From an uncultured Clostridia bacterium (GTDB lineage: Bacteria; Bacillota; Clostridia; Oscillospirales; Acutalibacteraceae), in the NCBI GenBank assembly GCA_947585615.1, contig CANPXD010000002.1, forward strand, positions 1 through 63,117: a DNA stretch of 63,117 nt. Reading direction: 5' to 3'. This document shows positions 7,410-22,314 of this stretch, in pieces. The notes below the pieces were generated by a model that saw nothing but the letters and a program-made list of their open reading frames with translations, did no database searches and had not been told where the DNA came from. Position numbers and translations under genes: made by a program. Position 1 is the stretch's first letter; the number at the start of each line of letters is the position of its first letter.

Positions 7410-7436
7410 ACGGGAGCGTTTTTGCTCCCGTTTTTA
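7410..7436. terminator. Hairpin abutting the recombinase-SpoVT stop codon
   Basis: ACGGGAGC (7410-7417) pairs with GCTCCCGT (7424-7431) around TTTTTT-type loop sequence. The T-run TTTTTATT is on the plus-strand side. It sits directly beyond the stop codon of spoVT, as expected for the original spoVT transcript end. Confidence 0.5.
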
Positions 7437-9623
7437 TTCCATCTGTTTTCCGAGGAAAGCCGCTGCCACCTGAACAAGCTTTATATCGGTTTCGGTCGGT
7501 AAATTGTTTGACTCATCCTCAATAAGCGCAATTGCGCCCGAAACATCGCCGCCGTAAACGATCGGATAAACAACGTTTGCCTTGCGGTTGAACCCCTCTA
7601 TTGCGTTTATGGGCGGAACATCGGGCGTTGATATATGGATTGCCCTGTTTTCCATTAGTTCCTCAAGGTTCTTTGTTATACGCCTTTCAAGAATTTCTCG
7701 TTTGCTTATTCCCGAAGCGGCAATAACGTGGTCGTTGTCCATAATGGCAATCGGCAGTCCGCCGCTTTTGTGAAGCACCTCGGCATACTGATTGGCGAAA
7801 TTTGAAAGCTCGCCGATCGGGGAATATTTTTTAAAGATAACCTCGCCTTCGGCATCTGTGAAGATTTCAAGCGGGTCACCGCTACTGATAACATTGACAT
7901 CAAGAGCCTTGTCCTTCTGGTGTGTCACCTTAAGGACTACTTTGGCATTTGAGTTACTCCTGATGTCCCAATCAAAATTTACAGCTTTATTCATAGGTGT
8001 GAAATCAGGCATAAGCTCCTCGCTTATTGTTCCTGTTTCAAGGAGCATTTGAATATCGCTTTTGAGCTGTATATCAATATGGTCATCATAAATATCTATA
8101 CGGTCAATAATTATTTCAAGGTCATTTTTATCAATCAGTTCTTTATTTAATATATCATTAAAAATATCAATAGCTGTTCGGGCAATACGATTTACCTTGA
8201 TTATTGTGTTTTCTCGTTCGGTTGCAAAGGTTATCTGATTTTCTATACCGGCAATTCTGCTGTGCAAATCGTTAATCAAATACTCATAGCTTTCCTCAAT
8301 TACATCTGCATTGTCAGGATTTTTCTGTATCTCCTTAATTTTCTGTCGCATTGTAACTACAAGCTCGTCCTTTGCATCAAACAGTTGAGTTTGTAATTCG
8401 TTGATTTCGGATTGACCTTTTTTGAGGTTCTTTTTTTCATCCTTAATGCCCTGTTCTAATTTTGCAAGCATTTCTTCGGAGTTCTTCACAACTCTTGCAA
8501 CATAGCTTTTTAAGATGGCAGTGAGCATATCAACTCTTGTATGATGTGACGTGCATCCCTTTAATCCTCTTTTGTGATATGTTCCACAGGTGTAGGCTGC
8601 CGCCATATCCGAACGACTCATTGAAAACATAGGGCTTCCGCAATCTCCGCAGAATAAAAATCCACTGAAAGATGTATCGTATTTTTTAACACCCCTGTAA
8701 TTTGAGCGTGTTCGCTTTTTCATTTGCTCCTGAACCGTTGCGAAGGTCCTGTAATCAATGATAGGTTCGTGATGATTTTCAAACACTATATGACTGTTTT
8801 CGGACAGCTTCACATCAGGGCCGTTAATTTTTGAACGACTATACTTTTTCTGACGGAGCGTGCCAATATAAAAATCATTACCCAGAATTCCTTGAATGGT
8901 GGGAATTGCCCAAACAGGCTTTGCTCTGATTTTGTTAGGTATATTCTGTTCATCTTTGCGCTGCTTTTCAACCATTCTTGGCGTCGGAATATGTTCATCA
9001 GTCAGATAGTTGGCAATTTTTTTATATCCCCATCCTTCAAGATACAATGAGAAAATCTTTTTAACCACCTCCGCAGCTTGCGGTTCAATTTCAAAATAGC
9101 CTAATTTCGTGTTGGTAATTACATAGCCGAAAGGCACGCTGCATATCCAATCACCGCTCTTTTGCTTAACATCAATAACTCGTCTTACCTTTTTTGATGT
9201 ATCTGTTACAGGCATTTCATTCATAAGAAATTTAAACTGAATAAGTGTCCAGTCATCCTGAACAGGATAATCAATACCATCATTTATAGCAATGATTCGA
9301 AGCCCGGAATCCCTTAAATCCTCAAGCTCAACAAGACCTCTGCTGTTCCTACGGGAAAAACGGGATAAATCCTTTACCATTAAAATATCATAAGTGCCGT
9401 TTTTTAGTAATGGACGAAGCCGCATATAATCCTCTCTTTGCTCAAAAGTATAACCGCTTCTGTCTCTGTCGGTATAAAAATCAAGCTGAGCATCAGGAAA
9501 TTCTCTTGATACAAACATCTCAATGCTGCGGCGTTGATTTTCTATTGAGGTATTGTCACGGTCTTCTTCCGTATCAACGGAAATTCGCAAATAACCGGCT
9601 ATCTTTAAAACTTTATTCGTCAT
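7434..9623 (-). CDS. Large serine recombinase fused in frame to the SpoVT C-terminal (GAF) half
   Basis: The 729-residue ORF is chimeric. Residues 1-581 form a large serine recombinase: resolvase domain with YLRIS (catalytic Ser15) and DLSRFSRR (85-92), recombinase domain about 160-300, zinc ribbon cysteines 325, 328, 346 and 357, then a coiled coil about 375-480. At residues 582-583 (GD, at attL) the frame runs into host spoVT: PLEIFTD, GEVIFKKYSPIGEL and the terminal AAAFLGKQME are SpoVT signatures. The enzyme should integrate and excise the element. In the excised circle its tail would instead be the 25 residues now at 22141-22218. AAGGAG precedes the ATG. The fusion is read directly from sequence; its activity is unknown. 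Confidence 0.93.
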   Translation of the reverse strand: MTNKVLKIAGYLRISVDTEEDRDNTSIENQRRSIEMFVSREFPDAQLDFYTDRDRSGYTFEQREDYMRLRPLLKNGTYDILMVKDLSRFSRRNSRGLVELEDLRDSGLRIIAINDGIDYPVQDDWTLIQFKFLMNEMPVTDTSKKVRRVIDVKQKSGDWICSVPFGYVITNTKLGYFEIEPQAAEVVKKIFSLYLEGWGYKKIANYLTDEHIPTPRMVEKQRKDEQNIPNKIRAKPVWAIPTIQGILGNDFYIGTLRQKKYSRSKINGPDVKLSENSHIVFENHHEPIIDYRTFATVQEQMKKRTRSNYRGVKKYDTSFSGFLFCGDCGSPMFSMSRSDMAAAYTCGTYHKRGLKGCTSHHTRVDMLTAILKSYVARVVKNSEEMLAKLEQGIKDEKKNLKKGQSEINELQTQLFDAKDELVVTMRQKIKEIQKNPDNADVIEESYEYLINDLHSRIAGIENQITFATERENTIIKVNRIARTAIDIFNDILNKELIDKNDLEIIIDRIDIYDDHIDIQLKSDIQMLLETGTISEELMPDFTPMNKAVNFDWDIRSNSNAKVVLKVTHQKDKALDVNVISSGDPLEIFTDAEGEVIFKKYSPIGELSNFANQYAEVLHKSGGLPIAIMDNDHVIAASGISKREILERRITKNLEELMENRAIHISTPDVPPINAIEGFNRKANVVYPIVYGGDVSGAIALIEDESNNLPTETDIKLVQVAAAFLGKQME
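7874..7880 (-). other. attL core (recombinase / spoVT-C junction)
   Basis: On the minus strand the sequence GGTGACC encodes the shared Gly-Asp at the junction. Left of it lies host spoVT (PLEIFTD...); right of it lies the recombinase gene. The same site at attR reads GGCGACC (22218-22224), so the core is GGYGACC with the crossover somewhere inside. Confidence 0.8.
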
Positions 9624-9639
9624 AATACTCCTTCTTTTT

Positions 9640-9684
9640 TACAATGTTATATTTCATAAAAATATATTTACTAATAACATTGTA
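9640..9684. promoter_or_regulatory. Inverted repeat in the recombinase leader
   Basis: TACAATGTTAT (9640-9650) and ATAACATTGTA (9674-9684) are perfect inverted arms 17 bases upstream of the recombinase start. The arrangement suits an operator controlling recombinase expression; no cognate regulator is identified. Confidence 0.45.
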
Positions 9685-9755
9685 ACAGGTAAATTTAATA
9701 AATTCAATAGTTTTGTTTGTATTTATTTCGCAGTCTTACATATAATAATCGCAAA

Positions 9756-9829
9756 TGCAATAATTGCACATTTTCACATTGACAATATGCAATTATTGCA
9801 CTATAATCAAATCAGAGGTGCAATTATTA
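9756..9829 (+). promoter_or_regulatory. mntA-hepT promoter with three phased operator copies
   Basis: A strong promoter is visible: TTGACA (9779-9784), 17-base spacer, TATAAT (9802-9807). Palindromes TGCAATAATTGCA (9756-9768) and TGCAATTATTGCA (9788-9800, inside the spacer), plus a half copy TGCAATTATT (9819-9828) running into the start codon, are spaced 31-32 bases centre to centre, about three helical turns. The likely ligand is the HTH domain of the downstream MntA-like protein, giving autorepression. Confidence 0.75.
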
Positions 9830-10299
9830 TGAATCTGAGAGATTTAAGAATTGAAAAAGCATTGACACAAAAGCAGGTTGCAGAGTTAGTCAATATTTCC
9901 CTACGTTCCTATATAACATATGAGAATGATGAAACAAAAATAGGAACTATTAAATATAATTACATTATTGAGAAGCTGAGTCAAATAAATCCTGTTGACG
10001 AGGAACACGGTGTAGTCAGCATTGATTACATCAAAGACAAATGTAATCATGTTTTTGAAAAATATAGCGTTGACTATTGCTATTTATTCGGATCCTACGC
10101 AAAGGGCTCTGCAAATGAAAAAAGCGATGTGGATTTGCTGATTTCTGCGGATATTAAAGGCATAAAGTTTTTTGCCTTAGTAGAGGAACTGCGAATAGCT
10201 TTGCAAAAAAAGGTTGATGCATTAGATATTAATCAACTAAATAATAATCCGGATTTAACAAGAGAAATATTAAAGGACGGAATAAAAATATATGGATAA
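9829..10299 (+). CDS. HTH-MntA fusion: XRE DNA-binding domain plus MNT nucleotidyltransferase antitoxin
   Basis: Starting at the ATG at 9829 (AGAGGTG ribosome site; an upstream in-frame ATG lies in the promoter), the protein has 156 residues. Residues 1-55 are an XRE-type helix-turn-helix (LTQKQVAELVNISLRSYITYE). Residues 65-156 are a minimal nucleotidyltransferase with GS-x10-DxD: Gly88-Ser89, Asp100, Asp102. In HepT/MntA systems MntA AMPylates and neutralises the HEPN toxin. The next gene overlaps by 8 bases and encodes that HEPN partner. The HTH fusion allows operon autoregulation through the TGCAAT palindromes. Confidence 0.88.
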   Translation: MNLRDLRIEKALTQKQVAELVNISLRSYITYENDETKIGTIKYNYIIEKLSQINPVDEEHGVVSIDYIKDKCNHVFEKYSVDYCYLFGSYAKGSANEKSDVDLLISADIKGIKFFALVEELRIALQKKVDALDINQLNNNPDLTREILKDGIKIYG

Positions 10300-10624
10300 T
10301 ATCAAAAATGATAGCTATTATGTAAACAAGATAATTACGGATTTAGAGTTTATCACTGTGCATATGGAAACAGTTAATTTAGAGGAACTGACCAAAAACG
10401 ACATTCTTCTTGATTCTATGCTTTTTCGCATGATTCAGATTTCCGAAAATACAAAATTGTTATCTGAAGAATACAAATCATCAAAGCCACATATTCCATG
10501 GTATGCAATTTCAGGATTAAGAAACAGAATTGTTCATGATTATGGCAGTGTCGATTTAAATGTAATCTATGAAACATTGAAAAATGATATTCCCGAATTA
10601 TTAGAAATGTTAAAAAACGAATAA
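10292..10624 (+). CDS. HepT-like HEPN ribonuclease toxin (DUF86)
   Basis: The 110-residue all-helical protein carries the HEPN RNase motif R-x4-H-x-Y as Arg77, His82, Tyr84 (RNRIVHDY), preceded by the conserved PWYAISGLRN. HepT proteins cleave RNA and are held inactive by AMPylation of the motif tyrosine by MntA. Translation is coupled to the upstream antitoxin by overlap. It probably stabilises the element or acts in phage defence. Confidence 0.88.
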   Translation: MDNIKNDSYYVNKIITDLEFITVHMETVNLEELTKNDILLDSMLFRMIQISENTKLLSEEYKSSKPHIPWYAISGLRNRIVHDYGSVDLNVIYETLKNDIPELLEMLKNE

Positions 10625-10684
10625 TTCATTTGTGTTGACTTTTACATGAGCCAAGGTCAACTTTTTAATATAACATTTGAAAAG

Positions 10685-10850
10685 ATGTCCCCCGCCTCTA
10701 TAGGCGGCGGGGAACACCTTTTTCTTTCAGCGGAAGTTATAATCTCCCGCTGAACGGGCTTAAGCCCTTAACAAATGTTGGTGTTCGGGCATTGCCCTCG
10801 ATTAAAATGCCACCTCAACCAACTGATGTCGATTGAGGCAGCAACTCATA
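10685..10850. other. Structured non-coding stretch, possible RNA or transposon end
   Basis: The region holds consecutive stems: CCCCGCC/GGCGGGG (about 10690-10712), TCAGCGG/CCGCTGA (about 10728-10754), the 12-base palindrome GGGCTTAAGCCC (10758-10769), and GTTGGT/ACCAAC arms (10778-10823) enclosing further pairing. No convincing ORF covers it. The layout resembles IS200/IS605 ends or the 3' end of a TnpB-associated RNA. That is inference only, and a terminator cluster for hepT is the plainer alternative. Confidence 0.35.
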
Positions 10851-10852
10851 AA

Positions 10853-11152
10853 TTATCTTTCCCAGTTACGCTCTTTGCGATTTTTGAGTTTTTTTGCCTG
10901 TGCCATTTCTGCTCTGACCGCATTTCTTGCGAACAACTCTCTGTTGTATTTCAGCAATCTTACGGTATTTTCTATTAAGTCTTCTTCGCCGGATAATAAA
11001 ACAGCCACCTTGTAACCTGCAGCCTTGCATTGCTTATAATACGGCTTAAGGCTTTCTCTGAACTCCGCGTTGTCTCGTTCCTCTTTAGAAAGATAGAGAC
11101 AAACAACCTTTTCTTTTTCCAACACTTCACGAAACAAATCATTTACCTCCAT
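10853..11152 (-). CDS. Small hypothetical protein downstream of relaxase
   Basis: From the ATG at 11152 the protein has 99 residues (an earlier in-frame ATG at 11185 would add 11). The central part LYLSKEERDNAEFRESLKPYYKQCKAAGYKVAVLLSGEEDL looks like an alpha/beta domain that could sense or bind a nucleotide; the C-terminus is strongly basic (AQAKKLKNRKERNWER). It lies directly after mobA and is likely part of the mobilization operon. I do not recognise a named family. Confidence 0.6.
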   Translation of the reverse strand: MEVNDLFREVLEKEKVVCLYLSKEERDNAEFRESLKPYYKQCKAAGYKVAVLLSGEEDLIENTVRLLKYNRELFARNAVRAEMAQAKKLKNRKERNWER

Positions 11153-11191
11153 TTCATATATAGTTTTAACAAAAATTGGTAGCAATATTCG

Positions 11192-12553
11192 TTACCGTTC
11201 CTGATTTCTATTCTGTCTTTGATTTACTTTAATGCCCTCTATTGCCTTTTCCGTTTTGATTAAATCATCAAGATAAGATATTCTTTCAAGTGCAGATTTG
11301 GCAATTTTCATCTCATCTCGCAGTGGAGTTATTTTCTTTGTAAACTCTCTTGCTTTTGCATAAAGCATTTCCTTTTCGCTGCTATTTGCTCTGCGACAGC
11401 GATTATAGATACCTTGCCTTTGAGAAGATAAAATCTTAATCTGCTTTTGTTTTTGATCAATAAATAAAGAAAGCTCCTCAATCGAATGAATGTCATTCTT
11501 TGTTAGGAGCAAATATTCCTTATTTATTTTTTCTGCGTTTTTAACCTCTTGTCCGAGCATGGGTAACAGAGGTTTTGTTTTATCCTGACTGATATTATTT
11601 CCTGTCAGCAGCTTTAATAACTCGCTTATCAAAGCAAAAGTTAATTGAATACCATTCATTTTTTTAAGTTGATTATACTCAATGAGTAACAACTTTAACG
11701 GCTTCTCTTTCGGCTTATAAAATACATATCCTGAATCAAATCCGTTTTTATGATAGTTTTCATCAAGCCGTCGCTTAATCTCATCATCAGGATAGCCAAT
11801 GCTTTTCATTCGTATTGGTCTTTGCCAGCCGGGAGCAATAACAACAAGGTTGCAATTGTTATCTTTTTTCAATTTATAACCCATAGACTTTAGCCGGCGT
11901 TCAAAACTATGCCGGTCTGTTGCTGTTTGCAATGACTCCTCAATATCCTGCTTTAGCATATCTCTGTGAGTCATTTTACCTGACTGATGAAGCCAATAAA
12001 TGTTCTTGTTCTTTGAGTAAAAATCAGCGTTTTTGATAACAGATTTACCATAATCAAGGCATATTGCATCAGAAATTTGCCGTAGCAATTTATGGCCGTT
12101 AATCTTGTTTTCAAACTTTTTACCATCTACAAATGACACTGAATTGACTACAATATGGTTGTGAATATTGTCTGTATTCAAGTGGGTAGTAACTAACACC
12201 TCATACCTACCGCCCCACATTTGATGTGCAGTTTTGATACCGATTTCGTGAGCCTCTTCCGGTGTAACCTCGCCGTATGCAAAGCTTTGATAACCGTGAT
12301 AAGCAACATTACCTCCAAGCTTTCCAAAGCGTTTTTTAGTTGTGATCATTGTTTCATAAGCCCTTGGTGCAGCACAGTTTATACCCGTTACATACATCTT
12401 TTTGTCAGTCTTTTTATCATTTTTGGAATAGTTTATTACTCTTGCCAAATCATCATCAAGATATCTTTTGTCGATTGTTTTATCAGGATTTTCAGCATAA
12501 TCAATAACCTCTTTGAGTGATGATTTTACAGGCCAAAAGCCTGTTGTTGCCAT
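11192..12553 (-). CDS. MobA/VirD2-type relaxase (MOBP)
   Basis: The 453-residue protein has a relaxase domain in the first 200 residues with the three-histidine metal site His124, His131, His133 (HLNTDNIHNHIVVNSVSF) and a nearby candidate catalytic Tyr19. The C-terminal half is helical and basic. Relaxases nick oriT and pilot the strand during conjugative transfer. No coupling protein or secretion genes are present, so transfer would need a helper. It lies 4 bases downstream of mobC. Confidence 0.88.
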   Translation of the reverse strand: MATTGFWPVKSSLKEVIDYAENPDKTIDKRYLDDDLARVINYSKNDKKTDKKMYVTGINCAAPRAYETMITTKKRFGKLGGNVAYHGYQSFAYGEVTPEEAHEIGIKTAHQMWGGRYEVLVTTHLNTDNIHNHIVVNSVSFVDGKKFENKINGHKLLRQISDAICLDYGKSVIKNADFYSKNKNIYWLHQSGKMTHRDMLKQDIEESLQTATDRHSFERRLKSMGYKLKKDNNCNLVVIAPGWQRPIRMKSIGYPDDEIKRRLDENYHKNGFDSGYVFYKPKEKPLKLLLIEYNQLKKMNGIQLTFALISELLKLLTGNNISQDKTKPLLPMLGQEVKNAEKINKEYLLLTKNDIHSIEELSLFIDQKQKQIKILSSQRQGIYNRCRRANSSEKEMLYAKAREFTKKITPLRDEMKIAKSALERISYLDDLIKTEKAIEGIKVNQRQNRNQER

Positions 12554-12557
12554 GAAA

Positions 12558-12845
12558 TCATCTCCTATCCTCCTTTAGAAATTCATCTCTGATATCGTCA
12601 ATAAGTTTTAATAATTCAACTTCTGTTTCGTTATTAATCTTATCATTGCAGAGCGAATACAGCTTATTTATCCGTGACGAAAACTGATAAAAAGCATCAG
12701 GCGGCGTTGCCTTTGGTGTGTATCCTAATGCTAATTTACGCAGATATTCTGAAAGAGAAAGACCGCATTTGTTCGCTTTTTTGCGAATAGAAATGTGTTC
12801 ATTTTGAGTAACTCTAACATAAATACTTTTATCTCTTTTGTTCAT
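12558..12845 (-). CDS. MobC-like relaxosome accessory protein
   Basis: The 95-residue protein begins with a ribbon-helix-helix-like segment (SIYVRVTQNEHISIRKKANKCGLSLSEYLRKLALG), typical of MobC/plasmid mobilization proteins that bind oriT and help the relaxase. It is directly upstream of the relaxase gene and next to the oriT candidate. A GGAACG site precedes the ATG. Confidence 0.8.
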   Translation of the reverse strand: MNKRDKSIYVRVTQNEHISIRKKANKCGLSLSEYLRKLALGYTPKATPPDAFYQFSSRINKLYSLCNDKINNETEVELLKLIDDIRDEFLKEDRR

Positions 12846-12879
12846 AATTTCGTTCCTTTCGATTGGTTGTTAGAGGGTT

Positions 12880-12960
12880 TTAGGGAAAATTTCCCTAAAA
12901 AACGGAGAATGTGCAATACATTCTCCCTGCTTGCTACAGGATGAGACACATCCTGTGAGT
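12880..12960. other. Candidate origin of transfer (oriT)
   Basis: Upstream of mobC are three nested inverted repeats: TTAGGGAAA/TTTCCCTAA (about 12880-12898), GGAGAATGT/ACATTCTCC (12904-12926) and ACAGGATG/CATCCTGT (12936-12943, 12949-12956). The last arm, CATCCTGT, fits the nick consensus YATCCTGY known for RP4-type MOBP relaxases. Position next to mobC-mobA supports the call; nicking is not shown. Confidence 0.5.
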
Positions 12961-13014
12961 ATTTTTAGACATAAAAATAACACCTACTGATTTTTTAATT
13001 CAAATAGGTGTTTA

Positions 13015-13914
13015 CTAAATTATCTTATTGTCTGAAAAGCCATAATCAACATCCGCAAAGTATTCATAAGCCTGACCTATCTTACGAATTCTTTTTTGTA
13101 CGCCACTATGATTTTTGTAGCCGAGCTTGTCAGCAATTTCTTCAAGGGTATATCCTTGCATACGATATTCAAGAATTTTCCTATCCTTCTCGCTTAATGT
13201 TGAAAGAAACTGATCAACTAAAACATCAGATGTCACATCATTCTCAACATCAATGTTTGTATCAATTATATCCCAACTCAAACCGTTATGAGAATTCTCA
13301 TAATCCGCCTGAAATCCCTCGAGCGAAATTTGAGGATGGTTTGTTCTTGTATGATACCACTTGCGATAGAAATCTGTTTTTTGTCGGCTGTTTCTTAAAT
13401 CAAAATCATCAAAAGAGCGGTATTCTTCAACGATTTTTAAAACATCGTACATATTATTGTTTCTCATAGTGACTTTTACTGCCGGTTTAAGGAATTTGAT
13501 AACCTCATCCATTGGCGGATATGGAAAAATTTTATCTGCTAATCGTTCAGCAATAAATTCAATCTCATTAATAACGCCTTGCAGAGTTAATGTTCTGATC
13601 CAATAATATGGTGTGTGAGAAAATGCCCAGGAAGGTTCTGTTTCAGAATAAATTTCTCTGCCGACACTCGGCATCATAATAGGCCATATCAGGTAAGCAT
13701 AAGAGCGCAGAAGAAAATTCATAAAGTCAGGACTTTCAACTAATGCAACAGCCTTATCATCATTAATCAGTGCATTAAATGATCTTGGTATTCGTCTGTA
13801 CTCCTTACCCCACATGGATATTATTTCTCGTGGTAAGAAATAGTATGCCGGAATATAATCAGCATTTTTGAACTCGCTGAATATTCCATTTCTTCTAAAA
13901 AGATTAATTGGCAT
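13015..13914 (-). CDS. Element protein with C-terminal sigma-region-4-like HTH
   Basis: In this 299-residue protein only the C-terminus is recognisable: LSEKDRKILEYRMQGYTLEEIADKLGYKNHSGVQKRI (about 240-285) matches a sigma-70 region 4 or LuxR-like helix-turn-helix. The N-terminal 200 residues are rich in Trp and Tyr and show no clear sigma region 2, so this may be an activator rather than a sigma factor. It probably regulates element genes. Confidence 0.6.
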   Translation of the reverse strand: MPINLFRRNGIFSEFKNADYIPAYYFLPREIISMWGKEYRRIPRSFNALINDDKAVALVESPDFMNFLLRSYAYLIWPIMMPSVGREIYSETEPSWAFSHTPYYWIRTLTLQGVINEIEFIAERLADKIFPYPPMDEVIKFLKPAVKVTMRNNNMYDVLKIVEEYRSFDDFDLRNSRQKTDFYRKWYHTRTNHPQISLEGFQADYENSHNGLSWDIIDTNIDVENDVTSDVLVDQFLSTLSEKDRKILEYRMQGYTLEEIADKLGYKNHSGVQKRIRKIGQAYEYFADVDYGFSDNKII

Positions 13915-14033
13915 TATTTTTCATCTCCTTTCCGAGGTAGTGCCCTCTATTAAATTAACGACATTGATGCATCTAAATTGTTCCTATATTTCCAATAAAA
14001 TTATACCATTTTTCAATTTATTTGCAAAATAAA

Positions 14034-14072
14034 AAATCCGATAATCTGCAACAAGTACAAAATATCGGATTT
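14034..14072 (-). terminator. Hairpin with T-tract on minus strand
   Basis: AAATCCGATA (14034-14043) pairs with TATCGGATTT (14063-14072) over a 19-base loop. On the minus strand it is followed by TTTTATTTTGC. The long loop makes it a weaker terminator; it separates the DUF234 promoter region from the gene ending at 13015. Confidence 0.4.
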
Positions 14073-14191: not shown

Positions 14192-14209
14192 CACAAAAAG
14201 GTGAACAAA

Positions 14210-15598
14210 ATGTTTATAGGACGAAAAAAGGAATTAGGCGAATTAAATAAACTGTATAATTCTGACAAATTTGAATTCACCGTTATATATGGCAGGCGCC
14301 GTGTCGGTAAAACTGCTCTTATTAATGAATTTACTAAAAATAAAGATACTATTTTTTTTACCGGTGTTGAAACCAATGCAAAACAAAATCTTGAAAATTT
14401 TTCAAAAAGCATTTTGGAGTACAATACAGGCAAAATAGTCGATTCAACCTTTTTTTCTTTTCAATCTGCGTTAGAATATGTTTTTGAATTGGCTAAAAGC
14501 AAAAGAATAGTCCTTGTAATTGATGAGTATCCATATGTCGCTCGCGCATCAAAAAGCCTTGCTTCTACACTTCAGCTTTTGATAGATAAGTACAAGGATT
14601 CTTCAAAGCTGTTTTTGATTCTATGCGGCTCTTCTATGTCCTATATGGAAGATAAAGTATTAGCGTATAAAGCACCTCTGTATGGCAGAAGAACAGCTCA
14701 GTTTAAAATACAGCCATTTGACTTTTTTGATATATGTGATTATTTCAAGAATTATACTGCAGAAGAAAAATTAATGGCTTATGGAATTATCGGCGGCACA
14801 CCCCAATATCTTTTGCAAATAAATGATAAAATCTCTATTGAAGATAACATCAAAAACATTTATCTTAATCCGACTTCGGCCATATATGAGGAACCAAATA
14901 ACCTCTTGAAACAGGAAGTCAGAGAGCCTGCCATTTACAATGCAATTATTACTGCTATTGCTGTCGGTGCATCAAAAATGAGTGAGATTTCAAGCAAGGT
15001 AGCAGAAGATACAAGCGTATGTTCAACCTATATTAAAAACCTTATTTCACTCGGCATTGTGAAAAAGGAAACGCCCTATGGCGAAAAATCAAGCCGAAAA
15101 ACAATTTATTCCATTGAAGATAATATGTTTCGTTTTTGGTATCGTTTTGTACCTGAAAACACATCTGTTATTTCCAGAGGTGCAACGGATCTTGCATATA
15201 AACGAATTGAACCTGTGCTTTCAACTTATATGGGCAGTGTGTTTGAAGAAATTTGCAAGCAATATTTGTGGAATCAGCTGCTTGACGGAAAAAGTCCGAT
15301 AAATTTCTCAGACCTCGGCAGATGGTGGGGCACAAACCCCAAAACCAAATCTCAGGAAGAAATTGATATTATGGGTACCGATAAAGACTCTGCTTTATTT
15401 GCCGAATGCAAATGGACAAATGAAAAGGTTGATACAGGAGTATTAGATACGCTTGTAAAACGCAGCGAATTATTCAACTTCAAAGAAAAACATTTTTACC
15501 TGTTTGCCAAAACAGGGTTTACAAAGGGTTGTATTGATAGGGCAAATGATATGGGAAATGTAACGCTTGTTAAATATATGGATATGTTAAAAAGCTAA
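14210..15598 (+). CDS. DUF234-type ATPase with PD-(D/E)xK nuclease-like C-terminus
   Basis: I place the start at ATG 14210, because AGGTGA (14199-14204) is spaced correctly for it and not for the GTG at 14201. The 462-residue protein has an archaeal-type AAA ATPase domain (Walker A GRRRVGKT, residues 28-35), a winged-helix middle and a C-terminal DUF234 domain. The latter ends in a PD-(D/E)xK-like site: Glu384/Asp386 then Glu399-Cys-Lys401 (FAECKW). Such proteins recur in gut anaerobes; a role in DNA targeting or defence is plausible but unproven. Confidence 0.8.
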   Translation: MFIGRKKELGELNKLYNSDKFEFTVIYGRRRVGKTALINEFTKNKDTIFFTGVETNAKQNLENFSKSILEYNTGKIVDSTFFSFQSALEYVFELAKSKRIVLVIDEYPYVARASKSLASTLQLLIDKYKDSSKLFLILCGSSMSYMEDKVLAYKAPLYGRRTAQFKIQPFDFFDICDYFKNYTAEEKLMAYGIIGGTPQYLLQINDKISIEDNIKNIYLNPTSAIYEEPNNLLKQEVREPAIYNAIITAIAVGASKMSEISSKVAEDTSVCSTYIKNLISLGIVKKETPYGEKSSRKTIYSIEDNMFRFWYRFVPENTSVISRGATDLAYKRIEPVLSTYMGSVFEEICKQYLWNQLLDGKSPINFSDLGRWWGTNPKTKSQEEIDIMGTDKDSALFAECKWTNEKVDTGVLDTLVKRSELFNFKEKHFYLFAKTGFTKGCIDRANDMGNVTLVKYMDMLKS

Positions 15599-15713
15599 AA
15601 CAAAGTTATTGTTTTTTCTTAGGATGCACCTTGGTGACGTTGACTTTCAAAATTTATAAATGATAGAAAGATAAGTAAATGAATCATAAATCGAAAAATC
15701 ACGAGACGGCAAT

Positions 15714-15750
15714 AGGGCATCCTTGATTAAGAGGGTGTCCTAAAATTTTA
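15714..15750 (+). terminator. Terminator after the DUF234 ATPase gene
   Basis: AGGGCATCC (15714-15722) pairs, with two wobbles, with GGGTGTCCT (15733-15741), followed by AAAATTTTA. The surrounding stretch 15599-15891 holds no gene I can support. Confidence 0.5.
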
Positions 15751-15891
15751 GTAATCAGCCGTATTGGTTTGACTGTAGGTTAAATAATTAATTTAATCGG
15801 GAAAATTACAATGAAATTATTATATGAGGAAATGAATGGAACTAATGGGATGGCTGGTGTTATATTTTTATCTTAATGGAAACTAATTACC

Positions 15892-16803
15892 TTATTGGAT
15901 TATGAATACGAAGATATAGCAATCATCTATGATGGAATAAACTATACCTATAAATAATTTAACGGCAGGAGCAATTCTACCGCTTATGTCCTTGTAGGAT
16001 ACATACTTTGGACTGTCATCTATTTGATGAATTATACAATGCTGTATTTCCGTATTCGGGTAAACTGCGGATATTGCCTCAGGAAAACCTATAAGTCCGT
16101 CTATACAGGTTATCAGAATATCTTCAACACCCCTGTTTTTAAGCCCGTTCAGTATGGAAAGCCAGTATTTGATGCTTTCATTTTCCCCCACATACATTCC
16201 GAGTACTTCTTTTCTCCCGTCAAGATTTATTCCTATGGCAACATATACAGCCTTTTTAACGATTCTTCCCTCATAACGAACATGATAGTGTATCGCATCC
16301 ATAAATACAACCGCATATATGCTTTCCAATGGTCTCTGCTGCCATTCCTTTACCACAGGCAGTATCTTGTCCGTTACACGGCTGATTGTACTGTTTGATA
16401 CCTCGAGCCCGTATATTTCAAGAATATGGGAGGATATATCGTTTTGAGACATCCCTTTGGCGTACTGGATTCGACTCTCCGTTGCGTAACTGTTTCTGCT
16501 ATTTGAAGTGTCTTTATTTCGGTAATCATACTTGCTGTAAACAAGCTCTTCATCAAGCTCCGCCTCAAGTCCATTCTCAAGGATATCTCCAACCATTTCC
16601 TTGAACAGACTGTTGATGTCGTTCATATTCTTTACGGCATTTCAGACATCAGTTCCCGTAATTTTTCTTTCCTTGAGGCTTTTGATGCCCTTTCTTCCGG
16701 GCTTAATTTGTACTTTGGCATAAAAATTTCCTCCTGAAAGTTATTTCTATTCTACGTCTTTCAGGAGGTTTACACAATATTTGAAAAAATCTCAAAACTG
16801 CCC
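15892..16803 (-). pseudogene. Decayed IS256-family transposase
   Basis: The N-terminus starts at ATG 16721 (MPKYKLSPEERASKA) and hits a stop after 29 residues. A frameshift then opens MNDINSLFKEMVGDILENG from 16626. An internal deletion joins SYATESRIQ directly to AKGMSQNDI, removing the region that carries the first catalytic Asp. The DDE core continues with VVFMDAIHYHVRYEGR and CIDGLIGFPEAI and breaks off after CIIHQI. The right terminus, read on the minus strand from about 16803, is CAGTTTTGAGATTTTTTC. It cannot encode an active transposase. Confidence 0.85.
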
Positions 16804-16809
16804 TTTATT

Positions 16810-17532
16810 TTAAATATTTAGAAGTCTTTTGAAATTATAATAAACTATTGATTCAAAATCACTAATGTTTAACACAGAAGAAATATGGTTGTAAGAATCT
16901 TTAAGTAGTTTTGGGTAATACTTTTTACCATTTACTTTTGTGAAAGGTCCGTCACTTTCGACCAATATTCTATCAGTGGGAATCACACTCAATAAATCCT
17001 TTGATTTTTCTAACATATTAGTGTTAATCGAAAAATAACAGTTTAAATAAACAAGTGATTCTAGTTGAGCTTTTGAACCGTTAAACCAGTGAATTATTGC
17101 CTTTTGAGGGCGATATTTTTCTATAATATCAATTGCATGGTTTTCAGACCTTTTTAAATGAATAGACATTAATCTGTTCCGCTCACTAGCTATTTTTACA
17201 ATTTCATCAAAATACAAAAGTTGTTTTTCTTTATCCAGATATCTCTTGCTATTAGAAAAATCCAAACCAATTTCGCCGAAATAATCAGTTCTATAAGACA
17301 TAAAAATGAATTGATTAAAATCTCGTATAGTTAAATCTTTACATTTAGGATGAAACCCCATAGCAAATTTAATATACTTTGATTCACCTAACATGCGGCA
17401 ACAAGAGTTATATATTCCGGGACTATTTGTCATACATAATGTGTATTGTTCTAAACAGTTTATGTTGTTATATAGTTCTTTATAATTTGGATAATAATCT
17501 AAATGAAAGTGAGTATCTATCAAATGCGTCAT
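16810..17532 (-). CDS. qatD: QatD: TatD-like metal-dependent hydrolase
   Basis: The 240-residue protein keeps the TatD metal ligands: His8-x-His10 (DTHFH), Glu87 (GEIGLDF), His125, His148 and Asp194 (ESDGPF). TatD proteins are DNases or deoxynucleases. As the last gene of qatABCD it is a required part of the Qat anti-phage system. Its ATG overlaps the qatC stop by 4 bases (ATGA). It differs from housekeeping TatD by operon context and short length. Confidence 0.9.
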   Translation of the reverse strand: MTHLIDTHFHLDYYPNYKELYNNINCLEQYTLCMTNSPGIYNSCCRMLGESKYIKFAMGFHPKCKDLTIRDFNQFIFMSYRTDYFGEIGLDFSNSKRYLDKEKQLLYFDEIVKIASERNRLMSIHLKRSENHAIDIIEKYRPQKAIIHWFNGSKAQLESLVYLNCYFSINTNMLEKSKDLLSVIPTDRILVESDGPFTKVNGKKYYPKLLKDSYNHISSVLNISDFESIVYYNFKRLLNI

Positions 17533-18899
17533 TCTTCAATGTATTCCTTTAACTCAGTATCTTGATATAACAATTCTATTATATCATTTAATGAGTCTTT
17601 GTAAACATCTTTGAATATATTTATTTCCTCAAGTGATAGTTTACCTGTGCTTCTAATTATCCTTGTTAATTCGTCATCGTTGATGTGTTGGTATCGATAA
17701 ACTGTGCTAATTACAGCATTTAAATCGCTAACTTTATCTGAACCCTCATATTGTTTTAAAAAGTCCATATTTAGAGCGTTATAATCATAACGTTGATCTT
17801 CATTAGATACATCTAATAATGAACTTTTTCTAATAATGCAAGGATAACAATATCCACAGTTTATGGGATATTCGACTTGCCTTGTTCTATAATATCTTGG
17901 ATTGCAAGGATGAGAACAAGAAATTGTTTTTGAATATCCTTTTTTAAATGCCACTTCGTCTTTTACAGAATTAACAATATTTCTTTTTGTTTCGTGTGCA
18001 AAAGGATTAATTATATCATTATTTATTCCTACTGAATTTAGTATGTCTTTAAACATATTCAAAAAATATGGATGGGTTGTTCTGGTAGTGCAAGAGCCTT
18101 TTCTGCTATTGGTTAGGGGTACATTTAAACCGATAAATCCGTTTTCAGGTATGTAAACAGGTATGTTTTCACCTAAAATACTTGCCATAACTAATGCAAC
18201 GCATAAAAACAGCAAAGAACGTCCCCTCGATGTGTTTTCGCTCCCTTTAAACAGTGTTCCGTCTTCATATTTTGGAGCATATGAACCAGCAGTAAAACTG
18301 ATAAATTCAGCATTTAGAGAAGGATACTCTTCTCTAAACATTTTAGATAAGTCATTTTGTTTCTTTTGTAGTTTAGGATATTCATTATGTCCAACAAGAC
18401 AAGGCGAGTGACCATTTTTTAATAAGTGAATTGCCCCGCAGAAAGAATCTAGACCACCTGAAAATAAACACACGGAATCACATTGAGGAAGTGGATTTGT
18501 TTTTCGACGTTTAATTTCATCATGAAAGATGGAATACTCTGTCTTTCTAAAAGCAACATCCCATTTGTCTCCAGTTAAATATCTTAACATAGCATTTACT
18601 CTGTTAACTTCATTATTCCATTTTGCAAATTTAAAAACAGGTATATTTACCTTTAAATCTCTTGTCCAGTTATCGTCAAAACAACTCCGAGGAATTCTTT
18701 TATCAACAGCAAATACTGATAATCCAACAGTAAACAAATCTTCATATATTGGATTGATATCTTTAATTCCCATCCTGTTTAAGACTTTTGGGAAATTAGT
18801 AAAAACATTTCTTTCTGCATATCTGTCTATCGAAAACAAAATAGAATTATCCAGGAAATCCACTGTTTCATTGACGTCTTTCTTAATGAAAATATTCAT
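17529..18899 (-). CDS. qatC: QatC: QueC-like PP-loop protein
   Basis: The 456-residue protein has the PP-loop ATP-pyrophosphatase motif SGGLDS (147-152) and a QueC-type zinc site with Cys328, Cys332, Cys348, Cys351 and Cys354. QueC makes the 7-cyano-7-deazaguanine base; the longer QatC (about twice QueC length, with an extra N-terminal domain) is specific to Qat systems and may modify a protein or nucleic acid. No other queuosine genes are nearby, which supports a defence role. It begins one base after the qatB stop. Confidence 0.9.
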   Translation of the reverse strand: MNIFIKKDVNETVDFLDNSILFSIDRYAERNVFTNFPKVLNRMGIKDINPIYEDLFTVGLSVFAVDKRIPRSCFDDNWTRDLKVNIPVFKFAKWNNEVNRVNAMLRYLTGDKWDVAFRKTEYSIFHDEIKRRKTNPLPQCDSVCLFSGGLDSFCGAIHLLKNGHSPCLVGHNEYPKLQKKQNDLSKMFREEYPSLNAEFISFTAGSYAPKYEDGTLFKGSENTSRGRSLLFLCVALVMASILGENIPVYIPENGFIGLNVPLTNSRKGSCTTRTTHPYFLNMFKDILNSVGINNDIINPFAHETKRNIVNSVKDEVAFKKGYSKTISCSHPCNPRYYRTRQVEYPINCGYCYPCIIRKSSLLDVSNEDQRYDYNALNMDFLKQYEGSDKVSDLNAVISTVYRYQHINDDELTRIIRSTGKLSLEEINIFKDVYKDSLNDIIELLYQDTELKEYIEE

Positions 18900-19586
18900 T
18901 TAATTCAACTCCCCATAGTATTCTTTCATAGTATTATAGGCATCATCAACAGTGTTTTTCACAACATTAGAATCAGAAATGTTTATAAAATCATTATCCT
19001 TAAGCTGCGAAATATCGACTTTTTCAAACATAATACTTCTGATGTACCTTTCAACTTCATTCAAAATATCAGCTGTTTGCTTCGGAGATTTTTTATTGCG
19101 TATTTGTTCTTCATACATAAATGCAAATAGTATAGATGCAAAGCAAGCTAATAATTCTATTAATAAATGTCCTTGGTCAAAATTCACCAAATCATCTAAC
19201 GATTCTATCCTTAAGTTCTTGAGTGCCTTTGACAGAGCATCGCTTGCCAACGATTCTTCTTTTGTTGAACCTCCGGAAGCATACTCATCGTATAATTCTT
19301 CCCATATTTCTTTTGCTGTTTTTCCTATTAGGTATTCTTTTTCGTATTCTTCAAGAGTGCGATTTAATCCATTAACTCGAATTCCTCTTGAAATGCCTAA
19401 CAAACTAGAAACTGCTTTTGAGAATTCTTCTGCAAAACTATCATCTGTTCTTACGGCAGAAGCATATTTTCTGACTGCATTTGGTAATCCGTCACTTACA
19501 CTACCATTTACCATTCGTGTAACGGCTCTTTTTGCTTTTGTCCATTCACCATTTGTGGGCGGAATATAACTTTTTGATGTTCCCAT
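18900..19586 (-). CDS. qatB: QatB: Qat system component of unknown function
   Basis: The 228-residue, mainly helical protein starts MGTSKSYIPPTNGEWTKAKRAVTRMV, a characteristic QatB beginning. It is acidic and has no catalytic motif that I recognise. Identity rests on position between the KAP ATPase and QueC-like genes and on its N-terminus. It may be the substrate of QatC, which is speculation. Confidence 0.8.
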   Translation of the reverse strand: MGTSKSYIPPTNGEWTKAKRAVTRMVNGSVSDGLPNAVRKYASAVRTDDSFAEEFSKAVSSLLGISRGIRVNGLNRTLEEYEKEYLIGKTAKEIWEELYDEYASGGSTKEESLASDALSKALKNLRIESLDDLVNFDQGHLLIELLACFASILFAFMYEEQIRNKKSPKQTADILNEVERYIRSIMFEKVDISQLKDNDFINISDSNVVKNTVDDAYNTMKEYYGELN

Positions 19587-21389
19587 TTATTTTTCTCCTC
19601 TTATTTTCTTAGCTAATTCAACAGTGATTTTATTTTTTTGTTGTAATGTTTTCAACACATCATCAATCACATTACTATCTTTTAAATACATTTTTTGCAT
19701 ATAGTTAATATCTCCCATACCTAATTTTTCGTCTTTTGAGATAATAACTTCTGCAATTTCTTGTCTGTAATCATCAAATTCAGAGAATAATGCACTTATT
19801 ACAAAATAATCAATGCTTCCTTTTTTGAAAGCAGACAGAATAACTGAGAAAATGCTTTTTATATCAACTGCATTTAATGATCTCATTTCACTAACAATAT
19901 TCTTTATCGTTCCTTCATTAGAAACACTAATTCGGTCAATAAAGTTTTTTGCTATTTCGCTAGTGTTACTTGTACCAGTTCCGTTAGTCCTTAAATGTTC
20001 ACGTGTTAAATAAAAGTACTTGTCCAATCTCTGTTTATATAAATCTTTGGGTTCACATTCAATCCATTTAATAACATTTGGAGCACTCCAACGTTTAAAA
20101 TCATTTTTAAATTCAGGCGTTCCTACGTTTTCAACTACTTTTTTAAATTCTTCGTTTTCTGTTTGATAATCCTTGTTCCATTCATTGAGTTGACTAAACA
20201 ATTCAGAATCAATTTTTTGAAGGACTAAAAGTTTGGCAAGGATTTGTGGCTCAATTTCATCTCCATAATACATTCTTGCTAACTCTCGTTTTGTAATAAA
20301 TGTATTTAAGAATCTTTTAGCCTGTCTAGGATTTCCTTTTAATGTAGCTGAAACGATGTTCCTAATATTGTCTATTACGCAAAAATCATCGGAAAGCTGT
20401 GTGTTTTCTTCATAGTTGAAATTCAGTTCTCTACATATTTCAAACAATTGGTCAACAGTAATTCTATCTGTTTTAGTAATGAGACCTTTTTCATATACCT
20501 TTCCCACTATTTGTTTGAATTGCTCAGCATCAAAATGATTTTGAGCAATTAATAGTAAAAGATAATTCTCAATGTCTTTTGTTGATAAATCAGGAATATA
20601 GATGGGTATTTGAATAATTTTCTCAATGTATTCCTCTGAAAGTTCAACATCCATATCCTCGATTTTGGGATATTTTTTCTTTATTGCATATTTAATGACA
20701 TTATTATCTGCTGCAATAATAAAAGAAGTGTTTTTCACCGACAAGAATAGTTTTATGGCTTCAAGAGTTTCAATAATTCTTTCTGGTGAACATCTATCTA
20801 AATCATCAACTATTACAACAACATTAATATTCGACTCATTTAATAAACACTCAAATTCTTTTTTGAAATCTGTAATATTTTTTACTACTTCTTCTGCAGT
20901 TATTGATTCTTTTACATCGTTAGCAAATTTGACAACATCCTGTGCATCTCGAGCAACAGCCATTGCCGCAAATCCAGGGTCACCTGTAGCTGCCGAACTA
21001 GCGATAGCTATACCAGTAGTAAGCGCACTGCTAGCAATCTTCAAAAAGTTTATTCTTTTAATTAAGCTCTTGATTTTGGTTTTAAAAGAAGACACTTTAT
21101 CTTTGTTTTCAAGTTCACCAAGCAAGCATTGCATTAGAGCTATTTTAGCATCTTCATATCCTTCAAACATCCATGCATTAACATTTATAACTAATGTGTT
21201 ACTATCGCTTTTGTCGCTTTCTAATTTTTTATCAATTAAATTTAATAATGTGGACTTACCGGCACCCCATAAACCAAAAACGCCTATGGTTGTTGGTGTA
21301 TTGTTTTGGTCATTTACAATGTTAGAAATGATTTCTGCATAAGGTTCATAAAACAAAAAATCAATATCGGAAGCATTATCTAACCACAT
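19587..21389 (-). CDS. qatA: QatA: KAP-family P-loop NTPase
   Basis: The 600-residue KAP NTPase has Walker A GLWGAGKS (39-46), a hydrophobic insertion at about 115-135 (FLKIASSALTTGIAIASSAAT) typical of KAP proteins, and Walker B VVVIVDDLDR (190-199). It is the first gene of qatABCD and probably powers or senses during phage infection, perhaps at the membrane. Start: GAGGTGATC site before ATG. Its stop abuts the qatB start. A long AT repeat lies just upstream. Confidence 0.9.
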   Translation of the reverse strand: MWLDNASDIDFLFYEPYAEIISNIVNDQNNTPTTIGVFGLWGAGKSTLLNLIDKKLESDKSDSNTLVINVNAWMFEGYEDAKIALMQCLLGELENKDKVSSFKTKIKSLIKRINFLKIASSALTTGIAIASSAATGDPGFAAMAVARDAQDVVKFANDVKESITAEEVVKNITDFKKEFECLLNESNINVVVIVDDLDRCSPERIIETLEAIKLFLSVKNTSFIIAADNNVIKYAIKKKYPKIEDMDVELSEEYIEKIIQIPIYIPDLSTKDIENYLLLLIAQNHFDAEQFKQIVGKVYEKGLITKTDRITVDQLFEICRELNFNYEENTQLSDDFCVIDNIRNIVSATLKGNPRQAKRFLNTFITKRELARMYYGDEIEPQILAKLLVLQKIDSELFSQLNEWNKDYQTENEEFKKVVENVGTPEFKNDFKRWSAPNVIKWIECEPKDLYKQRLDKYFYLTREHLRTNGTGTSNTSEIAKNFIDRISVSNEGTIKNIVSEMRSLNAVDIKSIFSVILSAFKKGSIDYFVISALFSEFDDYRQEIAEVIISKDEKLGMGDINYMQKMYLKDSNVIDDVLKTLQQKNKITVELAKKIRGEK

Positions 21390-21400
21390 AAGATCACCTC

Positions 21401-21420
21401 ATATATATATATATATATAA
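21401..21420. repeat. AT dinucleotide repeat in the qatA leader
   Basis: About ten AT units lie directly upstream of the qatA ribosome site (GAGGTGATC). On the minus strand a weak promoter (TTGCCT, 17 bases, TTATAT) leads into the repeat, so slippage would change the promoter or leader spacing. Confidence 0.7.
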
Positions 21421-21554
21421 TATCTCAAGTTTATGATAGGCAAAATCGTCATAAATGTCAATTTTTCTGCAAAAATGTACAAAAAAACGACAAAAAAAGA
21501 CTCGATTATTTAAAAATAAATCTTTGTTGTTCTAAATTATAATTATTTGATAAT

Positions 21555-21705
21555 TGAGCGCCGAAACGATACCGGTTATCTTCTAGGATATGACTTTGAT
21601 GAAGAAGTAGCAAAGCTCTTTAAACGGAAGCGTTGGAAGGATAGTCTAAAGAAAGAGCGTTACTGTAACTCCCAAAACCATGACGAGCGAGATTTGGAAA
21701 GATAG
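21555..21705 (+). pseudogene. Orphan 3' coding fragment of unknown family
   Basis: A plus-strand frame ending at TAG 21703-21705 encodes TGYLLGYDFDEEVAKLFK and RWKDSLKKERYCNSQNHDERDLER. Its composition looks genuine but it lacks a good start and ribosome site. It lies between the qat promoter region and a strong hairpin, and may be the tail of a gene lost during element rearrangement. Confidence 0.3.
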
Positions 21706-21720
21706 AAATCATATTAGCAA

Positions 21721-21757
21721 AAATGACCTATGCTGATCTTCTCGGCATAGGTCATTT
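21721..21757. terminator. 13-bp stem hairpin, terminator
   Basis: AAATGACCTATGC (21721-21733) pairs with GCATAGGTCATTT (21745-21757) over an 11-base loop. It follows the orphan coding fragment by 16 bases. Confidence 0.6.
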
Positions 21758-21780
21758 CTATTGTTTGGCTATAAGCATGA

Positions 21781-22082
21781 AACCCCCCGGTTTTACCGGG
21801 GGGGGAATAGAGCGCTTTAGTAAAAATAAGAACGCCGAGCTGCAAGCAAGGCGAGAGTATTGGCGAAAAAATAACCTCCAAGTATAATAGAAACGGTTTG
21901 GCATCCGCATTACAAAAACAGGGAGGAATTAAATAGTGAAAACAGCAGGAAATAATGAAATAAATAAATTATCGCATTCAACGTATAGATGTCAGTTTCA
22001 TATAGTGTTTGCGCCAAAATACCTATCTTATAATTTGTTGAACCAGACACAACATTCATCAAACAGACATCTCCTGCCTTGA
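21781..22082 (+). pseudogene. Truncated IS200/IS605-type tnpA with left-end hairpin
   Basis: A GC-rich hairpin CCCCCCGG/CCGGGGGG (21783-21790, 21796-21803) resembles an IS200 left end. GGGAGGA precedes GTG at 21936, which opens a frame with LSHSTYRCQFHIVFAPKYL, the classic Y1 transposase N-terminus (HxVFxPKY). After about 30 residues the sequence changes to an unrelated tail ending at TGA 22080-22082. The HUH motif and catalytic Tyr are missing, so it is inactive. Confidence 0.75.
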
Positions 22083-22140
22083 GTATGTACTTCTAATTTA
22101 TTCAAATAACGATTTCATTGTTTTTTCTCCATTCATTTTA

Positions 22141-22314
22141 TTATCTAACGCAGCGCTCATAGAAATTCAGCATTGCGAAACAGAAGCGTTCATCGTCTGT
22201 CAATGTTATCAGTGGTCGGTCGCCCTCGCGTATACGGAACGAGCGTCTTATTTCCTTAGGAATTACGATTCTTCCCAAATCGTCGATTCGTCTTACAATT
22301 CCTGTTGCTTTCAT
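22141..22314 (-). pseudogene. spoVT: spoVT 5' part: AbrB-type DNA-binding half with element-encoded tail
   Basis: From ATG 22314 (GGGAG site upstream) the frame reads MKATGIVRRIDDLGRIVIPK and continues EIRRSFRIREGD, the SpoVT/AbrB swapped-hairpin DNA-binding domain. At residues 31-32 (GD) it crosses attR into element DNA and ends after 25 more residues (RPLITLTDDERF...YERCVR). The missing GAF half sits at 7434-7877 on the same strand. The truncated 57-residue product might still fold, since the foreign tail mimics the beta-strand pattern PLEIFTD. SpoVT is the forespore regulator acting with sigma G in Bacillus. Confidence 0.93.
22218..22224 (-). other. attR core (spoVT-N / element junction)
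   Basis: On the minus strand GGCGACC encodes the Gly-Asp shared with attL (GGTGACC at 7874-7880). Upstream codons match SpoVT (EIRRSFRIRE); downstream codons (RPLITL) do not. Six of seven bases are common, as expected for a serine recombinase with a short core. Confidence 0.8.

Follow-up and report, generated by a model that had tools for sequence, protein, structure and literature searches.

An integrative element that splits spoVT at codon 32 and joins its serine recombinase in frame to the SpoVT C-terminal domain

In the genome of an uncultured Clostridia bacterium (Acutalibacteraceae), the minus-strand sporulation gene spoVT is cut at codon 32 by a 14,341-bp element, and the large serine recombinase (LSR) gene of this element reads on in frame into the remainder of spoVT. 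The window analyzed is a stretch of 63,117 nt (assembly GCA_947585615.1, contig CANPXD010000002.1, positions 1 to 63,117), and the genome to which it belongs (G000) is a draft of 1.98 Mb in 125 contigs, 96.65% complete. A first-pass annotation of the window had placed the halves of spoVT at 22314–22219 and 7877–7437, on one strand and in the right order, with an element between them. The coordinates and the TIGR02851 profile bear this out, and the observation that an element splits spoVT is confirmed. The features that define the two ends, all on the minus strand, are:

22363..22391, minus strand: sigmaF/G-like promoter GTATA-N17-CAAAATA of spoVT, kept on the N-half
22219..22314, minus strand: spoVT N-half, codons 1–32, last codon GAC (TIGR02851 profile)
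22198..22227, minus strand: core of the left attachment site attL, GAGGGCGACC/GACCACTGATAACATTGACA (junction comparison)
22141..22218, minus strand: element-coded tail, 25 codons and stop, in frame with the spoVT N-half (frame and position)
9639..9685, minus strand: inverted repeat TTACAATGTTAT..ATAACATTGTAA, half-sites as in attP, just upstream of the recombinase gene
7434..9623, minus strand: LSR fused in frame to the SpoVT C-half, 729 amino acids, recombinase being residues 1–582 (open reading frame and domain scan)
7868..7899, minus strand: core of the right attachment site attR, TGTCAATGTTATCAGTAGCGGTGACC/CGCTTG (junction comparison)
7434..7877, minus strand: spoVT C-half, with the shared codon 32, codons 33–178 and stop, carrying the GAF-bearing SpoVT_C domain (PF15714, E 5.6e-38)

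The annotation had let codon 33 begin at 7877. The place is right, but 7877–7875 is the second copy of a duplicated GAC (Asp32); codon 33 begins at 7874, and codons 33–178 proper occupy 7874–7437. The junction, proposed as GGYGACC, is indeed GGCGACC at attL and GGTGACC at attR. If 14,341 bp are taken out together with one of the two GAC copies, ..GAGGGCGAC meets CCGCTTGAA..; both halves are open frames. When the whole draft genome is searched, TIGR02851 matches two pieces only, at profile positions 1–40 and 27–180, and no second spoVT is found. The flanks were compared with related genomes, and the empty site appears in a sister species, G021, where spoVT is uninterrupted at the same locus and has the same neighbors as in the window: a UvrD-like gene, the gene at 6036–7076, and an arabinofuranosidase gene. 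The joined flanks of the window align with G021 without a gap over the joint, in blocks 78–81% identical. Because the alignment to this spoVT is gap-free and the neighboring genes are the same, the junction core is far beyond chance. With the chimera as query, G021 gives a match to the spoVT part only at E 1e-10 or better, and none to the recombinase part. The annotation had named two objections, a second complete spoVT together with this locus fixed in all relatives, and the lack of any excision product together with lesions in the recombinase. As far as the analysis reached, neither is borne out; the recombinase retains the Y-x-R-x-S motif with the catalytic Ser and the four Cys of the zinc-ribbon.

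With its resolvase, recombinase and zinc-ribbon domains followed by a long helical region, the protein qualifies as a large serine recombinase and looks intact. Its frame has no stop at the junction and reads on into SpoVT residues 33–178. At the other end, the N-half product is 57 amino acids long, 32 from SpoVT and 25 from the element. Read across the core, the 25-residue tail continues the frame of the recombinase, and once the element is circular it would form that enzyme's own C-terminus. The first-pass annotation had reported neither the read-through into SpoVT nor this tail. As judged from the reading frames, integration is an exchange of C-termini by which the recombinase would give up its tail and gain residues 33–178 of the host, with the SpoVT GAF domain. 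In other elements the tail often takes the form DPxxTTLTxxExFCFAMLxLxKRxGW. Amino acid changes in it are rare, with a low proportion of differing nonsynonymous sites (pN), in the three close pairs G217/G291, G204/G272 and G000/G008; the tail is not generally conserved, since changes are frequent in more distant pairs and pN is higher in G061/G072, G000/G061, G330/G426 and G402/G408. AlphaFold, run on the chimera with 27 sequences, gives a mean local confidence (pLDDT) of 70 and a global template-modeling score (pTM) of 0.29, with mixed confidence over the LSR part, a predicted linker at residues 530–600 (pLDDT below 50) and a well-predicted GAF domain at about 601–728 (pLDDT block means 76–91 over 601–729). 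The best Foldseek matches are serine integrase complexes, among them that of SPbeta, whose integrase YokA is also called SprA, and the SpoVT of B. subtilis.

The attachment sites were compared in 27 elements; of 28 taken with both ends, G281 was excluded because one arm is short, and three with other junctions (G114, G185 and G438) were not entered. The phage-type site attP is nearly palindromic around the central GA dinucleotide. Its arms match at 17.6 of 24 positions on average versus 6.3 when shuffled (maximum 16), while attB on the same measure reaches 9.7 of 24. When possible axes are scanned, attP is most symmetrical about the exact point that separates G from A (14.5 of 20, with 8.5 for the next axis and 5.2 for the mean); in attB the same axis is best but barely so (7.8 versus 7.6). 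The half-sites CAATGTTA and TAACATTG are found 32 bases apart in 24 of the 27 attP sites. Of 102 loci, 41 have the same pair again a short way upstream of the LSR gene, versus a shuffled mean of 0.4 and a maximum of 2, with a spacing of 33 or 34 bases in 29 of the 41; six duplicate loci and those with fewer than 200 bases upstream were left out of this set, and 61 of the 102 have no such pair. This recurrence suggests that the LSR may bind its own promoter. Junctions at the same codon without a fusion occur in G003, G143, G185, G438 and G114. The arms of G003 resemble the common attP and those of the other four do not. Codon 32 is a common docking site, and the fusion is peculiar to this LSR clade and no necessity.

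Some loci show further rearrangements. The halves of spoVT lie on opposite strands in G268 (L063/L064) and G114 (L081/L082), 24 kb and 240 kb apart, and in L171 the LSR is joined to an inverted spoVT N-half; these are inversions with a breakpoint at the att core. In G185 (L086), two spoVT N-halves 1.9 kb apart have similar non-SpoVT continuations, which suggests tandem insertions of another recombinase type. The assembly of G373 (L107/L108) breaks spoVT between contigs exactly at the att core, yet no break shows when the pieces are read together as a single gene; this could have arisen if split and unsplit copies coexisted in a mixed population.

The split gene with its fused recombinase is a family and not an accident. 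Among the best 80 of at least 577 LSR relatives in the species collection, 73 are fused in frame to SpoVT_C (blastp). The fused isolates include Ruminococcus bromii 5AMG, R. flavefaciens 007c, ATCC 19208 and FD-1, R. bicirculans 80/3, R. albus KH2T6 and Anaerotruncus massiliensis AT3. The seven unfused loci are L133, at a contig edge, L185, L171, and four that end in other sequence (L127, L128, L129 and L148). Ten isolate genomes, picked for a re-search because they bear the LSR, contain no intact spoVT; seven of them have the two halves on a single contig, ordered as expected and 14.6–55 kb apart, two have them on different contigs, and in one (G478) the N-half was not found. Within the order, evenly sampled, spoVT is cut at this site in at least 34 of 394 genomes. 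For this count 38 genomes with weak E values were re-searched, and 34 of them had a C-half without a full-length match, the others (G359, G377, G401 and G123) being full-length or nearly so. G126 and G373 were then dropped, since their pieces end at contig edges, and the 32 left make 34 with G000 and G008; a genome with both a split and an intact spoVT would be missed, so the figure is a lower bound. An open frame of 567 amino acids or more runs into the C-half in 29 of the 34. In G180 the fused frame is cut by the contig (299 amino acids), and G185, G143, G438 and G114 have their other junctions. An N-half could be located for 26 of the 34. Across 80 genomes of the genus, spoVT is split in 7, full-length in 61 and absent or a fragment in 12. 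In a sample of 196 genomes of the class, five have the LSR at E 1e-150; besides the window's genome these are one genome from the same family and three that lie outside the order. Their open frames measure 721–757 amino acids, and the one read from outside the order, G584, shows the same fusion. Viral contigs gave 57 LSR loci, four of them full-length at 55% identity or more (L201–L204); L201–L203 have the same spoVT fusion, two of them running off the contig end, and L204 stops at the junction. As a separate observation, spoVT is intact at L185 (4001–9078), and 2.8 kb upstream of it stands an LSR that has an end like attP and a degenerate tail; of the best 80, only this locus was seen to have the LSR beside an unsplit spoVT.

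Between the two halves of spoVT, the element encodes:

9787..10299, plus strand: helix-turn-helix (HTH) and nucleotidyltransferase (MNT) protein (domain scan)
10292..10624, plus strand: HepT-like protein (PF01934), with the MNT protein a probable MNT-HEPN toxin-antitoxin pair
10853..11185, minus strand: small conserved protein, candidate recombination directionality factor (RDF) (profile and linkage to the LSR)
11192..12553, minus strand: MobA/VirD2-like relaxase (PF03432, E 1e-36)
12558..12845, minus strand: NikA-like mobilization protein (PF21983)
13015..13914, minus strand: protein with a sigma-70 region-4-like HTH, under curated cut-offs (domain scan)
14201..15598, plus strand: ATPase with DUF234, PADLOC candidate PDC-S27
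15892..16626, minus strand: Mutator-family transposase remnant (profile 111–270 of 379)
16810..21389, minus strand: Qat defense operon, with QatD at 16810–17532, QatC at 17529–18899, QatB at 18900–19586 and QatA at 19587–21389

This content looks like that of a transferable island with accessory cargo rather than of a prophage remnant. A relaxase and a NikA-like protein are present, and no transfer-channel family was found among the open reading frames scanned in the element; it is probably integrative and mobilizable, akin to the integrative and mobilizable elements (IMEs). Seventeen complete elements span 8.9–29.4 kb, and the relaxase cluster is found in 6 of them. QatA, QatB, QatC and QatD are adjacent, as in a Qat system, with a weak match for QatB (E 2.6e-8); the defense function is predicted by sequence. 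The related element in G008 has an LSR 98% identical and, in place of QatABCD, restriction-modification-like genes recognized by eye, without a family scan. Elements of this family may be carriers of defense genes. Synonymous sites record their movement. The recombinases of G000 and G008 differ at 32% of such sites, as against 81% for the spoVT C-half, and between G000 and G099 the synonymous proportion (pS) is 0.03 for the recombinase versus 0.82 for the C-half. Since recombinase divergence is far below that of spoVT, the element has moved between species and entered the same codon again; the second pair points to a recent transfer between the two hosts.

The LSR is the sole gene present in all 17 complete elements (BLAST clustering), and the small protein of 10853–11185 is the only other family that comes near universality. 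A profile built from 11 of the 17 matches 15 at 1e-10 or better on the strand of the LSR, including 4 of the 6 not used in the build. Weaker matches occur in G476 (5.5e-10, on the LSR strand) and G402 (3e-5, on the other strand), and in G217 the gene lies near the far end of the element. A homologue is present within the fetched DNA at 67 of the best 80 LSR loci: at most 350 nt upstream of the LSR on the same strand in 60, further upstream in 6 and on the other strand in 1. Of the 13 loci without one, 8 have less than 1 kb of DNA upstream. An LSR with at least 60% identity is present in 6 of the 80 genus genomes (three further ones have an LSR of 29–30%), and the small protein occurs in 5 of these 6 and in 0 of the 74 others; in the sixth, G072, the contig ends about 100 bases upstream of the LSR. 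The chance value of this co-occurrence is 2.5e-7, ignoring relatedness. Profile and fold searches gave no clear family or fold match, and the protein is undescribed. We propose it as a candidate directionality factor.

A mechanism can be suggested from these arrangements. The LSR would insert attP into codon 32 of spoVT and, because attP sits inside the 3′ end of the recombinase gene, integration would split two genes at once. Excision by attL and attR, probably aided by the small protein encoded upstream, would rebuild both spoVT and the recombinase gene. In C. difficile, spoVT is a forespore gene whose expression falls in sigF and sigG mutants, and a spoVT mutant gave no heat-resistant spores (PMC3789822). 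Because SpoVT is needed for such spores there and the host has no other spoVT that we could find, excision seems most likely to occur, at least in sporulating cells, so that the element would work like a skin element; we lean toward this reading with some reserve. The first-pass annotation had called the element skin-like, which is plausible. An LSR element in the only spoVT found, open halves and an empty site in a relative all stand, as do the recurrence across the family, the symmetry of attP, the movement between species and the linkage of the small protein to the LSR, while the excision itself, its tie to sporulation and what the small protein does are what we infer.

Several observations favor the skin-like reading. 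The promoter type kept on the N-half fits the sigmaF/sigmaG consensus; with split, intact and restored genes pooled, it precedes 31 of 69 spoVT starts, versus a shuffled mean of 1.6. A sigG model matches with 340 bits or more in 40 of 44 genomes examined, which supports the presence of sigG and is no proof of sporulation. For many pairs pN/pS is uninformative, because the element was transferred and recombinase pS lies well below spoVT pS. In G384/G449, recombinase (0.34) and C-half (0.24) have diverged alike and the elements share collinear blocks of 78–92% identity; here the split C-half shows pS 0.24 and pN 0.012. G217, G281 and G291 are intermediate (0.21–0.23 versus 0.35–0.40). A forespore promoter driving the recombinase was considered and rejected; upstream sites are of the sigmaA-like type in 92 of 110 regions, versus 27.9 when shuffled.

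Other observations weigh against the skin-like reading. No plasmid record in the plasmid collection carries the LSR at E 1e-80, the phage collection yielded 2 phage-labeled fecal records with LSRs below 60% identity (E 1e-60), and no excision product was seen in the two collections searched for a free circle. For 8 of the 34 split genomes of the order, no N-half was found. Forespore promoters precede the recombinase in only 4 of 110 upstream regions, no enrichment over the shuffled mean of 3.7. The curated cut-off of the sigG model, 457 bits, is reached by 0 of the 44 genomes; the model also matches in 10 of 14 control genomes, non-spore-formers included, the best match in G145 has 202 bits, and sigG is in pieces in G268, R. 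albus KH2T6 (G477) and G478. R. albus and R. flavefaciens are described as non-sporulating. The C-half of G121/G122 evolves fast (pN 0.409, pS 0.77). Lastly, G034 (L040), G094 (L119) and G062 (L120) have an extra N-half with the element tail 1.3–6 kb upstream of an intact spoVT, and this recombinase is not found in the three genomes; G062 shows a direct repeat, with a single difference, of at least 196 bases from the promoter region and the N-half. Here spoVT appears restored for good, and this suggests that the split state is costly.

Alternatively, the element may be an ordinary integrative mobilizable element that docks at the highly conserved EGDPLEI of spoVT, where SpoVT is lost, excision is rare, has no tie to sporulation and serves transfer only, and the fusion is a by-product of the position of attP within the recombinase gene. 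The relaxase, NikA-like protein and varied cargo fit this, as do the recent transfer between species, the restored alleles from which the recombinase has gone, the junctions without fusion at the same codon in G003, G143, G185, G438 and G114, and the relaxed C-half of G121/G122. Against it stand the open C-half in the 34 split genomes of the order, the sigG-like matches of 340 bits or more in 40 of 44 genomes, the low pN/pS on the split half of G384/G449 and the forespore-type promoter retained on the N-half. We regard this alternative as a real contender, though one we would not bet on. The halves could also function without excision, if the chimera, or the two pieces in trans, supplied SpoVT function; the GAF domain of the chimera is predicted to fold alone. 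Against this, the cut falls inside the AbrB-type DNA-binding domain, so that neither piece has the whole of it and the 57-residue N product has 32 of its residues; such function is highly improbable. An assembly artefact or a one-off disrupted gene might be suspected in a draft of many contigs. The artefact is refuted by the same structure on long contigs of named isolates (G472 and G473) and in many species, and this explanation deserves practically no credence.

Within the skin-like reading, a bolder version can be put forward tentatively and with considerable doubt. The chimera would be a sporulation-responsive switch in which the enzyme with its own tail integrates and the form with the host domain excises, giving intact spoVT and a circle in the spore and re-integration after germination, once per spore generation. 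Because SpoVT works in the forespore, such excision must touch the germ line.

The annotation did not know spoVT as a described target, and in the titles and openings of the open-access full-text literature, a scope that leaves most subscription journals and bioRxiv outside, no published description of an element in spoVT was found. In the sections available of three sources, the sporulation genes named as carrying intervening elements are sigK, spsM, spoVFB, spoVR, gerE and yabG, spoVT not among them; for B. subtilis skin, skinCd and SPbeta these sections tie excision to the mother cell, where gerE also acts (PMC10747680, PMC5595907, PMC5025042). The sigK skin elements, B. subtilis skin and C. 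difficile skinCd (LSR CD1231 and RDF CD1234), likewise consist of an LSR element in a sporulation gene with its halves in order, and their precise excision restores sigK (PMC5025042). With this type the spoVT element shares in-order halves, a short shared core, a joint that is intact in silico against G021, the lack of another copy and an intact recombinase frame. It differs in that its target is spoVT, a forespore gene in C. difficile, that it is IME-like and not prophage-like, that its recombinase is fused to a host gene and that excision would be expected rather than observed. Similarly, gin in gerE of B. cereus (GirC and GirX) is non-phage, uses LSRs, has variable cargo including restriction-modification and has an att site with an imperfect inverted repeat; by contrast, gerE acts in the mother cell, gin has three recombinases, and the sections at hand mention no fusion to a host gene (PMC5595907). 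SPbeta in spsM, vfbin in spoVFB and yin in yabG are also intervening elements of sporulation genes, but are described there as prophage-like, and no spoVT element is named in the portion available (PMC10747680). YokA with its RDF (PDB 9dxd) is one of the solved full-length LSRs closest in sequence and in fold; the chain is entered under YokA as well as YotN and seems to hold integrase and RDF as a single polypeptide. In the spoVT element, the recombinase has a sporulation domain of the host, and not an RDF, as its natural C-terminal partner. The surprising parts are the recombinase-host chimera and the breadth of the family. In SSV-type archaeal integrases and integration-dependent phage repressors, attP also lies inside an element gene and integration alters the product, whereas in the spoVT element the product so altered, a serine recombinase, acquires a regulatory domain from the host without losing the frame.

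The mother cell dies, and a rearrangement of its genome costs nothing; forespore DNA is inherited. Since spoVT is a forespore gene in C. difficile (PMC3789822), excision confined to the terminal mother cell would not obviously suffice. Both spoVT and, with another element type, sigG belong to the forespore line, and mother-cell excision cannot repair a forespore gene except where its product comes from the mother cell. Either the element leaves ahead of forespore formation or within the forespore, its circle being lost or inserted again afterward, or sporulation in these lineages proceeds without SpoVT or does not take place. Should it be necessary to rebuild these genes, a bacterium would have programmed rearrangement in its germ line. 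A natural chimera of recombinase and host domain is also a test case for the directional control of serine integrases, and the gut commensals that carry the family include isolates.

The split of sigG was seen as a separate matter. Its pieces lie at 1102–1398 and 7496–8017 in R. albus KH2T6 (L265) and at 660–1004 and 18036–18476 in G268 (L266), and Lachnoclostridium MSJ-17 (L267) has the N-piece only, at 6116–6460. In all three, sigG breaks off after FSTYAVP or FSTYGVP, and the other piece follows in L265 and L266. Near the split gene lies a different, shorter serine recombinase (452, 461 and 475 amino acids), and this looks like a second class of intervening element in a forespore gene.

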